A stretch of 64,000 nt of DNA from Antedon mediterranea (lineage: Eukaryota > Echinodermata > Crinoidea > Comatulida > Antedonidae). The position numbers and the translations under genes are program-made. The notes beneath the pieces were generated by a model, which had not been told where the DNA came from, ran no database searches, and saw nothing but the letters and a program-made list of their open reading frames with translations. Location: contig NC_092673.1 of NCBI RefSeq assembly GCF_964355755.1, forward strand, positions 19,783,001 to 19,847,000. Direction: 5' to 3'. Below, piece by piece: positions 10,991 through 16,249 of the stretch. Numbering within the stretch: position 1 is the stretch's first letter; every line of letters starts with the position of its first letter.

Positions 10991-11140
10991 TGTACCGTTC
11001 ATGTACATGCTGCTAGTCATTTTCACTTATCAGATAGAAGAATAAATTTCCAAACTACAGTTTTTCAAAGTTTTTGTAGAATTTCCATCTAGACTGGTCA
11101 ATTCAGATAAGTATATAGACACTATATACTTGTATATAGA

Positions 11141-11250
11141 GTTATCGTATAAAAGGAGGGACACATTAAGACCGCTATTAAGCACAGACCTCAAAAATGC
11201 ATGTTTAAGAACAAACAAACCTGAAAGAATGTTTTTTAGAACAGGTTATT
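11141..11250 (+). repeat. Gag fragment duplicated in the DIRS leader
   Basis: About 95 bp (from GAGTTATCGTATAAAAGGAG) nearly repeats gag bases 12,985-13,080, with one substitution in the shared block; the match resumes in ACAGGTTAT after a short deletion. The copy lies upstream of the original gag ATG (11,264), so it is a captured internal fragment in the leader and not coding there. Confidence 0.85.
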
Positions 11251-11280
11251 TCTTGTTTTCTCTATGGAGAACAGTGATTA

Positions 11281-12160
11281 TGTTATGCGCGATTTGAACG
11301 ATTTGCGCAATTTGAAATTGCGCAAAAAAAATCCTTGCGCAATTTGAATTGAAACATGTGTTTCAAATTGCGCAAGCAACGTATTAAATTGCGCAAGTAA
11401 TCTGCAAATTGCGCAAGGTTTTTCGACAGATTGTGAAATCATGCACACCCATATTTTTATAGTAATTTCTAAGAATGATTCAAAATTAAAGATAAATATC
11501 GCATTTCCTTATTTTAGTAGTGCAAATATTGTTATAAGTTAGCATACCGTCGAAGAACCGACGAAGGAAAACGAAGCGGTGGTGTTACACCAGGCGGGCG
11601 CGGCGCGGGCGGCCGGCTATACTACTCTAGCCTAGCTAGGGTCTGGACTACTGATACTGACTAGGTTACATGGCCTAGCTTAAACTAATATTAAAAACTT
11701 AATTTTTACATTTATTTTGATTTATTTCAAGTTACAGTGATAATATTATTTAATTGTAATAATAAATGTTATGTATTTATTATACACATGTTATCTTCGC
11801 ATTTATTATGTTTTATTTTGAGTTATTTAGTTTCCAATAAATTATTATAATACCGATTGTCTGGTAGAATTTTGTTGCGCAATTTGAAAATTTACAGTTC
11901 GTTTTCAAATTGCGCAAAGGTGTCATATTGCGCAAGAACTATCTTGCGCAATTTACAAATTGTGCAGCGCAATTTAAAATTGCGCAAAGATTTTCTTGCG
12001 CAATTTGAAATTGCGCAAGTTGATTGCGCAATTTGAAATTGCGCAAAAAAATCCTTGCGCAATTTTAAATTGCGCAAGAATTCTTTGCGCAATTTCAAAT
12101 TGCGCAAGGATTTTTTTGCGCAATTTCAAATTGCGCAAATCGTTCAAATCGCGCATAACA
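11281..12160. mobile_element. Foldback element made of TTGCGCAA palindromes
   Basis: An 880-bp insertion whose ends are inverted repeats of about 50 bp beginning TGTTATGCGCGATTTGAACG. It is flanked by direct ATTA copies (11,277-11,280 and 12,161-12,164). Both arms are arrays of a 23-bp palindrome (TTGCGCAATTT, one central base, AAATTGCGCAA) spaced by 5-15 bases; the right arm (11,873-12,160) has about seven. The centre (11,430-11,870) is unrelated and includes a GC-rich stretch near 11,590-11,620. No transposase is encoded. It sits 17 bases after the first base of the presumptive gag ATG of the DIRS element. Confidence 0.85.
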
Positions 12161-13341
12161 ATTACATTTCTACTACGCCTAGGTCAAGCGAGGGTTTTCC
12201 CGCCGGCGCGCTTCCCGCCGTAGTAGGCGATGAAGAGACGGACCCCCCGCTATCGCCAACAGCGAAGGGCTCATCGCTTGTAAATGTGTTAGCTGCAATG
12301 CAGCGTAGTATGACAGAGACTAATACACTGTTGGGCGAGCTTAGTAGAGCCAAGCCTATTCAATTGTCTTCAAATGAAGCAATTAACACACCAGCTTCAC
12401 AGGAAGCATACACACTAGCTTCACAGGAAGCATACACTCCAGCTTCACAGGAAGCATCAAATACTGCACATGCAGCACATACCTCTAATGATAACTCAAA
12501 TAATCACCCCATATCGGAGGACGAGGCCTTGAGCATATTCGGAGGGGATGAATTTGAAGAGGCTGAAGAGGTGGAGGAGGAAAATGTAGACTCCATCCTT
12601 AATCTAATAGATACGTCCCTATGTGTTGACAACACTGTTGGGCCTGACATATCGGAAAAAATCGCAAAGATAATAAATGCTAAATTTGAATCTGCACTGA
12701 GTCTAGATAAACGCAAGGCTATCATTGAGAGATATAAGATACCGGGAAATCTAAAAGAAGTATATGTACCAAAAGTAAATGACCAAATTTGGAATGGACT
12801 GAAGTCTTTTAATAAACAAAGGGATCTGCGTGTAGCAGCCCTACAGGACTCAGTCGTAAAGGCCACAAGTGCCATTGCTATTTGTATCGAAGATATGCTT
12901 AAGGCGAAAGAATCCAAAAAGGCTCCTGATTATAAGCTAACAGCTACCCGCCTGTACTCTGTAGCCCTCTTGGGTTTTGTCAACAAAGAGTTATCGTATA
13001 AAAGGAGGGACACATTAAGACCGCTATTAAGCACAGACCTAAAAAATGCATGTTTAAGAACAAACAAACCTGAAAGAATGCTATTTGGCAATGACTTAAA
13101 ACAGGTTATGACTGATTCAAAACTGGAAGGGAGGATTATGAAAAACCAGGGACAAGTAGGCAGATATGCCCCATACACTACACAGAGAAGGCCTTTTTTA
13201 CCTCAGAGAGGGTACAACCCTCAGACATATCGACAAAACTATCAACAACACCAGGTAAATCCCCACGCCAGCGGACAAAGGGGACAGTCCGGACAGTACC
13301 AGGGAAAAAGAGGCAGGATGTTCAAGAATTACCGGCGATAG
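12055..13341 (+). CDS. DIRS gag-like protein, 5' end displaced
   Basis: The open frame is 428 codons, but the first 36 or so are translated foldback palindromes (MRNFKLRK repeats) and are not ancestral. Element-derived coding starts at about 12,161; the presumptive ancestral ATG is at 11,264, separated by the 880-bp insertion. An internal in-frame ATG at 12,298 is another possible start. Features: a 24-base repeat unit three times (12,386-12,457; ASQEAYT), an acidic stretch (EEAEEVEEE), the conserved DIRS gag block ending ERMLFGNDL near residue 344, and an R/Q/G-rich basic C-terminus suited to nucleic acid binding. It probably forms the particle protein. The stop lies 23 bases before the RT frame. 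Confidence 0.8.
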   Translation: MRNFKLRKNSLRNFKLRKDFFAQFQIAQIVQIAHNNYISTTPRSSEGFPAGALPAVVGDEETDPPLSPTAKGSSLVNVLAAMQRSMTETNTLLGELSRAKPIQLSSNEAINTPASQEAYTLASQEAYTPASQEASNTAHAAHTSNDNSNNHPISEDEALSIFGGDEFEEAEEVEEENVDSILNLIDTSLCVDNTVGPDISEKIAKIINAKFESALSLDKRKAIIERYKIPGNLKEVYVPKVNDQIWNGLKSFNKQRDLRVAALQDSVVKATSAIAICIEDMLKAKESKKAPDYKLTATRLYSVALLGFVNKELSYKRRDTLRPLLSTDLKNACLRTNKPERMLFGNDLKQVMTDSKLEGRIMKNQGQVGRYAPYTTQRRPFLPQRGYNPQTYRQNYQQHQVNPHASGQRGQSGQYQGKRGRMFKNYRR

Positions 13342-13364
13342 ATTCACAGGTAAAGGCACACTCT

Positions 13365-15314
13365 GTGTTAAATGATCTTAAACGATACTTAGACTATCGA
13401 GTAGAACATTTTGTTGGTGGCCAATTGAAAAAATTTATAGAAAAATGGCAAGAACTAACTTCTGATCATACAATCCTAAATTCAGTGAAGGGTGAAATAA
13501 TACAATTTTTAAGTCCTCCACCACAAACCATTACACGTCCATCAAATTTTATTGCAAAGAATCACATCAACTTAGTAGAACATGAAATACAGACACTGTT
13601 AACTAAACGTGTACTGGTTAAATGTGCATATGAACCAGGGGAATATGTATCTCCAATTTTTTCAGTTCCTAAGAAAGATAATAGGGTACGCATAATCTTA
13701 AATTTAAAATCACTAAACAAATATATTGAATATAAACACTTTAAAATGGACACAATCAATACCGCATTAAGTATGATAACGAAGAATTGTTGGATGGCCT
13801 CTATTGACTTAAAGGATGCATATTATAGTGTGGGAATACACAAGAATTCTCAGAAGTATCTAAAATTTCACTATCAGGGAGAACTTTATAAATTTACAGC
13901 ATATCCAAATGGTCTTTCCTTTTGCCCACGAACATTCACCAAACTTTTAAAACCACCACTTAGTTTTCTGAGAAAGAGAGGACATATTTTATGTGCCTAT
14001 ATTGATGATTTACTATTAGTAGGATCCACATACAAGAGATGCGTTGATACTATTATGGAAACAATAAAGATGTTTGATAATTTAGGTTTTGTCATACATC
14101 CTGAAAAATCAGTTTTTATACCTACACAAAGTATCACATTCTTAGGTTTTAACATTAATTCAGGTAATATGAAAATTAATTTGACAAGTCCAAAAATTGA
14201 TCGACTTACTAACTGTATTACCAGGATATTGGCAACATCTACTCCAACAATTCGAGAGATAGCACAGATTATTGGGTATATGGTGTCAAGCTTCCCTTCT
14301 GTACAATATGGTAAATGCCATTATCGGGCAGTGGAGAGGGATAAGATTAATGCTTTAAAGACAGCCAGAGGAAATTTCGACTCTAAAATGTGCTTGTCGT
14401 CCTCGGCTATTGAGGATCTACAATGGTGGCTGATAAACCTACCACAATGTTTTAATGTAATTGGACATTTAGCAATTGATTTAACTATTTACACAGACGC
14501 CTCTCTTTCTGGTTGGGGGGCAGCAATGGGTGAAGCCGCTACAGGTGGTCATTGGACAGTAAATGAGAGAAAATACCATATAAATTATTTAGAGCTATTA
14601 GCTGCATATTTTGGCCTGAAATCCTTTTCCAAACAAGTTCTAGGTAAACAGGTAAAGCTCATGATTGACAATACTACTGCTGTTTCCATTATAAATAATA
14701 TGGGAACATGTCACAGTGACCCTTGTAATGATATTACACGGACAATTTGGGCATTTTGTGAAAGTAATAATATTTGGATTACTGCAGCCCACATACCAGG
14801 AGTGCTTAATGTTACTGCTGATTTTGAATCTCGAAGACAGAATATAGATACAGAATGGATGCTAAATTCTAAAACCTTATGTGAGGTTCTAACGAAACTT
14901 AATGTTCTACCCACAATTGATTTATTTGCATCAAGACTAAATAAACAATTTGATAAATACATCTCTTACAGGCAAGATCCATATGCAACAGATATTGATG
15001 CGTTTACAATATCATGGCAAAATATATTATTCTATTGCTTTCCCCCTTTTAATTGTGTTCTCAGGGTTATACAGAAAATAATACAAGACAAGGCGCAGGG
15101 AATTCTAGTAGTACCAGATTGGCCATCCCAATCGTGGTACCCCATGCTGCTGGGGATACTCAAGGAAGCAACACAAATTCAACCGGCACCAGACCTTCTG
15201 TTGATGCCAGCACAACCGGGATTGATTCATCCTCTACACAAGAAACTACGACTGCTCATATGTCATGTATCAGGAGAAGCTTATTATCAAAGGGATTTAC
15301 CTCAGGCACAATAG
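13365..15314 (+). CDS. DIRS reverse transcriptase / RNase H
   Basis: An uninterrupted 649-codon frame. The reverse transcriptase copies element RNA; landmarks are SPIFSVPKKDN, SIDLKDAYYSV (about residue 145), the catalytic YIDDLLLVG (about 220) and FLGFNIN. RNase H follows with acidic residues in YTDASLSGWGAA (about 373), YLELLAAYFG, MIDNTTA and TADFESR. The C-terminus (LPTIDLFASRLN ... DAFTISWQ ... FPPF) is the methylase-like tail typical of DIRS polyproteins. All visible catalytic residues are present and there is no frameshift. The last 262 bases overlap the recombinase frame. Confidence 0.93.
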   Translation: MLNDLKRYLDYRVEHFVGGQLKKFIEKWQELTSDHTILNSVKGEIIQFLSPPPQTITRPSNFIAKNHINLVEHEIQTLLTKRVLVKCAYEPGEYVSPIFSVPKKDNRVRIILNLKSLNKYIEYKHFKMDTINTALSMITKNCWMASIDLKDAYYSVGIHKNSQKYLKFHYQGELYKFTAYPNGLSFCPRTFTKLLKPPLSFLRKRGHILCAYIDDLLLVGSTYKRCVDTIMETIKMFDNLGFVIHPEKSVFIPTQSITFLGFNINSGNMKINLTSPKIDRLTNCITRILATSTPTIREIAQIIGYMVSSFPSVQYGKCHYRAVERDKINALKTARGNFDSKMCLSSSAIEDLQWWLINLPQCFNVIGHLAIDLTIYTDASLSGWGAAMGEAATGGHWTVNERKYHINYLELLAAYFGLKSFSKQVLGKQVKLMIDNTTAVSIINNMGTCHSDPCNDITRTIWAFCESNNIWITAAHIPGVLNVTADFESRRQNIDTEWMLNSKTLCEVLTKLNVLPTIDLFASRLNKQFDKYISYRQDPYATDIDAFTISWQNILFYCFPPFNCVLRVIQKIIQDKAQGILVVPDWPSQSWYPMLLGILKEATQIQPAPDLLLMPAQPGLIHPLHKKLRLLICHVSGEAYYQRDLPQAQ

Positions 15315-16249
15315 AGATCATACTAGCATCGTGGCGAGCAGGAACAAAGGTTCAATATCAAACTATGGCTAACAGATGGTTTGAATTTTGTGAGAGAAAA
15401 AATTGTGACATTATTTCACCACATGTGACATTACCACTTGAGTTTTTATCAGATATGTTTAATTCAGGTTTATCGTACAGTTCTATTAATACTGCTAGAA
15501 GTATGTTGTCTTCTCTTTTTGCTGTAGGTCAAGAGTATGCATCTTTTGGTCAATTACCTATTGTGAAACGCTTTATGAAGGGTATTTTTGAATTAAGACC
15601 ATCTTTACCAAGGTACAGTTATACATGGAATGTCAATGTTGCCCTAGATTACATCAGAGGGCAACCATCAATCAAAGAATCATCGCTGAAAGAAATATCA
15701 CAAAGATTGGCGTTCTTATTGTGTCTTTTAAGTGGTCAAAGGTGCCAGACGATATTAAATCTCTCGATTGCAAATATGGAAAAGAGTGATCATAAAATTG
15801 TTTTCTATGTAACTGAAAAATTAAAGCATACACGGGTTGGCTCACATCAAAAGCCATTGGAATTCAATGCGTTTCCATCTGACAAAAAATTATGCATTGT
15901 GTCTTTGTTGACAGAATATCTTTCACGTACAAGTGTTTTTCGCCAGGATAAGGCACAGCTACTGTTAAGTTACATTTCCCCACATAAGCCGATTTCAAAG
16001 GATACAGTGTCCCACTGGGTAAAGAAATTCATGTGTAATGCAGGTATAGATACAGTCCAATATAAGCCCCATAGTACCAGATCAGCCTCAGCTTCTCATC
16101 TTCTAAATAAAAATGTTGACCTAAACAACATCATGAAGTCAGCTGGTTGGGCTAAGGAGGAAACTTTTCAGAAATATTATAATCGTATAGCACCTCCTAC
16201 TTTTAATTATGGTACTGCAGTTCTTGAGTCATGCTCAAGCGAGAAATGA
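15053..16249 (+). CDS. DIRS tyrosine recombinase
   Basis: A 398-codon frame, of which the part overlapping the RT frame (to 15,314) may not all be translated from this ATG; the first recombinase-like residues are around SCIRRSLLSKGFTSGTIEII (residue 69 on). It cuts and rejoins DNA to integrate the circular DNA form. The core shows the catalytic set: arginine in LSGQRCQTILNL, the H-x-x-R box in HSTRSASASHLL, tryptophan in SAGWAKEETF and the nucleophilic tyrosine in FQKYYNR. It appears intact. The stop precedes the internal complementary region by about 300 bases. Confidence 0.92.
   Translation: MCSQGYTENNTRQGAGNSSSTRLAIPIVVPHAAGDTQGSNTNSTGTRPSVDASTTGIDSSSTQETTTAHMSCIRRSLLSKGFTSGTIEIILASWRAGTKVQYQTMANRWFEFCERKNCDIISPHVTLPLEFLSDMFNSGLSYSSINTARSMLSSLFAVGQEYASFGQLPIVKRFMKGIFELRPSLPRYSYTWNVNVALDYIRGQPSIKESSLKEISQRLAFLLCLLSGQRCQTILNLSIANMEKSDHKIVFYVTEKLKHTRVGSHQKPLEFNAFPSDKKLCIVSLLTEYLSRTSVFRQDKAQLLLSYISPHKPISKDTVSHWVKKFMCNAGIDTVQYKPHSTRSASASHLLNKNVDLNNIMKSAGWAKEETFQKYYNRIAPPTFNYGTAVLESCSSEK

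Follow-up and report, generated by a model that had tools for sequence, protein, structure and literature searches.

A young family of foldback-type transposons with arrays of short palindromes, probably of the Ginger2 group, in the genome of Antedon mediterranea

The 64-kb window (the whole stretch of DNA analysed here) contains a DIRS element, identified by its reverse transcriptase, RNase H and tyrosine recombinase domains, and its gag gene is interrupted by a second element. The following features of the DIRS host have been located, all on the plus strand: the original gag start from the ATG at 11264 to the insertion point (11264 to 11280), the remainder of the interrupted gag (12161 to 13341), the reverse transcriptase/RNase H frame (13116 to 15314; PF00078, E 7e-21, and PF17917), and the tyrosine recombinase frame (15053 to 16249; PF00589, E 2e-19). 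The interrupting element occupies 880 bp at positions 11281 to 12160, and has inverted-repeat ends and ATTA on each flank.

The target-site duplication ATTA lies at 11277 to 11280 and at 12161 to 12164 (plus strand), and other copies of the element carry duplications of their own. The outer 50 bp, at 11281 to 11330 (plus strand, beginning with TGTTATGCGCG) and 12111 to 12160 (minus strand), are perfect terminal inverted repeats, 100% complementary over 50 nt, as found in non-autonomous cut-and-paste DNA transposons. The first-pass annotation, which was made from the letters of the window, had given the same element coordinates, the same outer repeats and the same duplication, and all of these have been confirmed. 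The left arm array (11303 to 11416, plus strand) contains 6 cores of the palindrome TTGCGCAA, the right arm array (11875 to 12138, plus strand) contains 15, mostly in steps of 15-16 bp, and the middle between them (11417 to 11874, no strand assigned) is non-coding and is replaced in other copies in a subfamily-specific manner. Inverted arms composed of short tandem repeats and a variable non-coding middle are the structure of a foldback element. When folded as single-stranded DNA, the element gave -241 kcal/mol versus -115 +/- 8 for shuffled sequences (z -15.4). No Rfam match was obtained for the element, and its end was absent from IMG/VR.

The arms had been described at first as arrays of a 23-bp palindrome. 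Arrays are certainly present, since TTGCGCAATTT occurs 20 times within the 880 bp, whereas 0.06 chance occurrences would be expected over the full 64 kb of the window, but the 8-bp palindrome TTGCGCAA in steps of 15-16 bp is a better description of the unit, and the supposed 23-bp unit corresponds to two such cores with a TTTNAAA spacer. The window copy has 21 cores, many of them 15-16 bp apart; the two arms are unequal, and the inverted repeat is perfect only in the outer 50 bp. In the 45 copies read in the genome, there are 768 exact TTGCGCAA cores, no other 8-bp palindrome is close in count, and 56% of near-neighbour core spacings are 15 or 16 bp.

Comparison with other DIRS copies has given direct information on the state before the insertion. 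At least five other DIRS loci lack the element, and their flanks are joined at one ATTA; this empty site was seen directly in one locus (L030) and through identical alignment boundaries in four more (L031, L032, L033, and L035). In L030, the ATG corresponding to 11264 begins a gag of 398 aa. Over 1,243 bp downstream of its empty site, the DIRS copy on contig C11 and the window copy share 99.6% identity, and the 398-aa gag starting at the equivalent ATG in the C11 copy reads MENSDYISTT... The original gag start has thus been confirmed by copies lacking the insertion, a comparison that the first-pass annotation had proposed, and its placing of the insertion 17 bases past the first base of the gag ATG was correct. 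Read from that ATG, the interrupted gag has 27 codons, MENSDYVMRDLNDLRNLKLRKKNPCAI, followed by a stop. The first-pass annotation had also suggested that gag now begins with an ATG at 12,055, but the codon there is TTG, and the first ATG of the open gag frame in the window copy is at 12,298.

Because the segment adjoins the gag start, it might have been a native leader of the DIRS element and no insertion at all, and the first-pass annotation had named its presence in all DIRS copies as the observation against an insertion. The empty loci, in which the flanks meet at a single ATTA, and the occurrence of the segment about 380 times elsewhere with other flanks leave this explanation with practically no probability, and we have rejected it on the empty sites. 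The empty sites in other DIRS copies, together with about 380 dispersed copies having their own differing 4-bp duplications, prove that positions 11281 to 12160 are an insertion within the DIRS gag start, as had been read from the window. The insertion appears to be recent, given how little the interrupted DIRS copy differs from the empty ones.

A 100-bp block just upstream of gag in the window (11138 to 11237) is a copy from the 3' part of the same gag, matching 13010 to 13086 with 96% identity over 77 bp. Since the other DIRS copies examined have no such block upstream, the window DIRS copy has a second rearrangement.

The first 20 bp of the element had 387 + 376 matches (about 763 in total) in the 354-Mb assembly with up to two mismatches, and the reversed control of this pattern had 0 + 1 under the same setting. 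The family amounts to about 380 copies, which are present on all 11 large contigs, and the complete copies are mostly 0.70-0.88 kb. Approximately 45 copies have been read, chosen among the matches listed by the genome pattern search, with other contigs sampled by bins. No relevant open reading frame was found in the copies read, and these copies are in this respect devoid of coding capacity. Over the aligned part, 13 of the 44 other copies share at least 99% identity with the window copy, so one subfamily has spread recently; the middles of other subfamilies have been replaced or inverted, and identity goes down to about 75%.

Several other elements were observed within or near family copies. 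A non-coding element of about 2.5 kb, whose ends are GATGTATTGTCCCCC...GGGGGACAATACATC, is nested in one copy (L105, C4:900362-903693), and the end sequence of this nested element is also found beside another family copy (L048). The element nested in a second copy (L106, C6:24058180-24059897) has inverted ends, CGCCGTGGCTAAAGATACGGTACCG. In a third (L005, C1:2620316-2621427), there is a second, nested foldback of repeated CGTTTGAACGGATTA-like palindromic units, resembling the TTGCGCAA arrays in style. A tiny element of about 190 bp at C1:7466365-7466554 has related ends, TGTTATGCGCGATTT, followed by a different continuation, TAAAATAGCGCA, and perhaps represents a sister family.

The duplications are informative on the mode of insertion. 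Among 44 copies read, they are exactly 4 bp in 33 and 5 bp in 3, and the 4-bp duplications comprise 25 different sequences, TATA being the commonest. A genome search for the end and its duplications, suggested at the outset, has thus yielded about 380 copies with varied 4-bp duplications; a duplication of fixed length at many sites is accompanied by sites seen empty, in the DIRS copies. In 34 copies with a 4-bp duplication, the target is palindromic, T-R-NNNN-Y-A: 31 have T at -2, 32 have R at -1, 33 have Y at +1, and 31 have A at +2 (P values between about 1e-8 and 1e-12). A dimeric DDE enzyme cutting with a 4-bp stagger would produce a symmetrical site of this kind.

These properties can be compared with those of known superfamilies. 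In the published description of Ginger2 (PMC2836005), the signature consists of TGTNR termini, 4-bp duplications (5 bp in TDD-4/5) and a preference for RTATAY, the inverted repeats are 45-297 bp, and a non-coding family, Ginger2-1N1_NV, is known. The present element ends in 5'-TGTTA...TAACA-3', its duplications are 4-5 bp, and its target agrees with RTATAY (R in 32/34, Y in 33/34, TATA commonest). The statement of the first-pass annotation that no family could be named is therefore only partly right: the arms are of the classical foldback kind, and Ginger2 agrees with the element in its ends, duplication length and preferred target. Ginger1 was rejected, since CCGG or CCGT duplications were not found, and a Mutator-type foldback likewise, since duplications of 8-10 bp were not found. 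A Mutator-type foldback with atypically short duplications would account for arms of short tandem repeats, which are typical, and most described foldbacks are thought to be Mutator elements (PMC4079207); duplications of 4 (sometimes 5) bp and a palindromic T-R-N4-Y-A target make this highly unlikely.

A transposase-coding partner has been searched for in several ways. No transposase-coding element with the ends of the family, and no H2C2 plus DDE integrase-like transposase between such ends, was found among the end matches listed. When the coordinates of end matches and integrase-domain matches were compared by eye, neither the 77 rva_4 matches nor the best 150 of 838 rve matches included one close enough to a listed end to suggest a partner. 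Eight rve loci were looked at; most have reverse transcriptase or RNase H stretches, and these few loci look like LTR retroelements. With end patterns designed to leave out the array, all copies obtained were decayed or rearranged. Searches with self-complementary duplications (TATA; BTAV) gave complete end pairs on all large contigs, nearly all of 0.7-0.9 kb. Of the longer pairs, two were read fully and two partly, and C10:2373599 (1.7 kb) was left out. Two candidates, C4:900382 (3.3 kb) and C6:24058200 (1.7 kb), were rejected as ordinary copies with a nested element. In the part read of C7:5217744 (3.8 kb), a transposase frame is absent in the middle, and C7:10527209-10532782 has a retroelement gag-like stretch at the end that was read.

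Two further features were recorded during this search. Inside a long end pair there is a stretch resembling a tRNA-derived SINE promoter (GGTGAGACTCGATCTCGGTACC...; L107 961-1030, C7:5219960-5220029). At several loci, rva_4 integrase-core matches occur as oppositely oriented pairs about 3.5-10 kb apart (C1:26565674/26569246, C4:20154973/20158541, C6:31605812-31615575, and C9:15661611/15670559).

Judged from its sequence features, the element is a non-autonomous transposon of the foldback type and probably belongs to the Ginger2 group. Since ends, duplication length and target match Ginger2 and others fit less, a Ginger2-type transposase acting in trans is the most likely mover; since no transposase-coding partner was found, this assignment is inferred. 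As a whole, we consider it reasonably likely that this is a young, non-coding cut-and-paste family, about 380 copies strong, that depends on a transposase supplied in trans, most likely one of the Ginger2/Tdd kind. The same type of non-autonomous element might be moved by the transposase of another superfamily giving 4-bp duplications (IS481EU-like, PHIS-type, Sola-, Academ- or an unknown DDE). This would agree with the result that no partner gene was found among the end pairs and domain matches examined, with the TGT..ACA ends and 4-bp duplications of IS481EU (PMC10045372), and with the 0-4 bp duplications produced by PHIS members. However, IS481EU has been described only from parabasalids and its frequent 15-bp duplications are not seen here (PMC10045372), and the RTATAY target given for Ginger2 is a very close match, so that we regard another superfamily as rather unlikely, though worth serious consideration.

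For the Ginger2 reading, the following mechanism is proposed. A transposase encoded at another locus, most likely an integrase-like DDE enzyme of the Ginger2/Tdd kind, would act in trans on the non-coding copies and join their 5'-TGTTA...TAACA-3' ends to the palindromic T-R-NNNN-Y-A target with a 4-bp stagger, giving the 4-bp duplication. The rows of TTGCGCAA, at about 1.5 helical turns, would be secondary binding sites for several transposase subunits per end. The window copy jumped into codon 6 of the gag of a recently copied DIRS element, truncating gag to 27 codons.

Secondary transposase binding is, by analogy, the most likely role of the arrays: the long inverted repeats of Galileo, a foldback-like member of the P superfamily, contain internal repeats that act as additional binding sites for its transposase (PMC3688188). 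Because TTGCGCAA was not better conserved than the spacers in a core-versus-spacer test, this role has no support from constraint; the copies may not be old enough to show it, or copying from unit to unit may keep the arrays uniform. The lack of excess core conservation also speaks against another explanation, that the arrays are mainly host bZIP (C/EBP) sites for transcription of the element or opening of chromatin, and not transposase sites. TTGCGCAA equals the reported C/EBP alpha/beta consensus (PMC10941009), and the 768 exact cores in 45 copies, with other 8-bp palindromes far fewer, are consistent with this, but the element has no gene to transcribe, and we find the explanation doubtful. 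Quite improbable as well is a further reading, in which a Ginger2-type lineage would have built its ends into rows of 8-bp C/EBP-consensus palindromes (about 20 per copy, in 1.5-turn steps) at some 380 loci, where host C/EBP-like proteins would either have been taken over to recognise the ends or be recruited as enhancers. If that were true, each jump would scatter a dense cluster of bZIP sites.

If the Ginger2 reading is true, the foldback architecture would be extended to this integrase-like group, the transposases of which are related to the integrases of retroviruses and LTR retrotransposons. The family would then be a natural system, with phased repeated sites on both ends, for studying how many integrase-type subunits load per end. 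Binding of C/EBP-type factors to the TTGCGCAA rows, if it occurs, would also make the family a mobile source of clustered regulatory sites.

Among known systems, the family shares with Ginger2/Tdd (PMC2836005) its ends, 4-bp and occasional 5-bp duplications, an RTATAY-type target, inverted repeats of tens of bp and the existence of non-coding derivatives. It appears to differ from the Ginger2 families described there in its arms of palindrome arrays, and differs from them in its copy number, about 380 being above the numbers given there; no transposase was found among the end matches listed. With IS481EU (PMC10045372) it shares TGT...ACA ends and the 4-bp duplications of some families, whereas IS481EU has so far been described in parabasalids alone and frequently has duplications of 15-16 bp. 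Galileo (PMC3688188) serves as a model in that repeats in its inverted arms hold several transposase sites, but it belongs to the P superfamily, and in place of short palindromes it has long direct repeats containing a THAP site. Arms built from short tandem repeats are the classical foldback structure (PMC4079207), and Drosophila FB, sea urchin TU and Tetris share with the present family such arms, a variable non-coding middle and a transposase that has not been found (PMC4079207). Foldbacks placed in a superfamily are mostly Mutator elements, and Tetris has 8-10-bp duplications (PMC4079207), whereas those of the present family are 4 (sometimes 5) bp; unlike FB, TU and Tetris, its repeated unit is an 8-bp perfect palindrome in steps of 15-16 bp.
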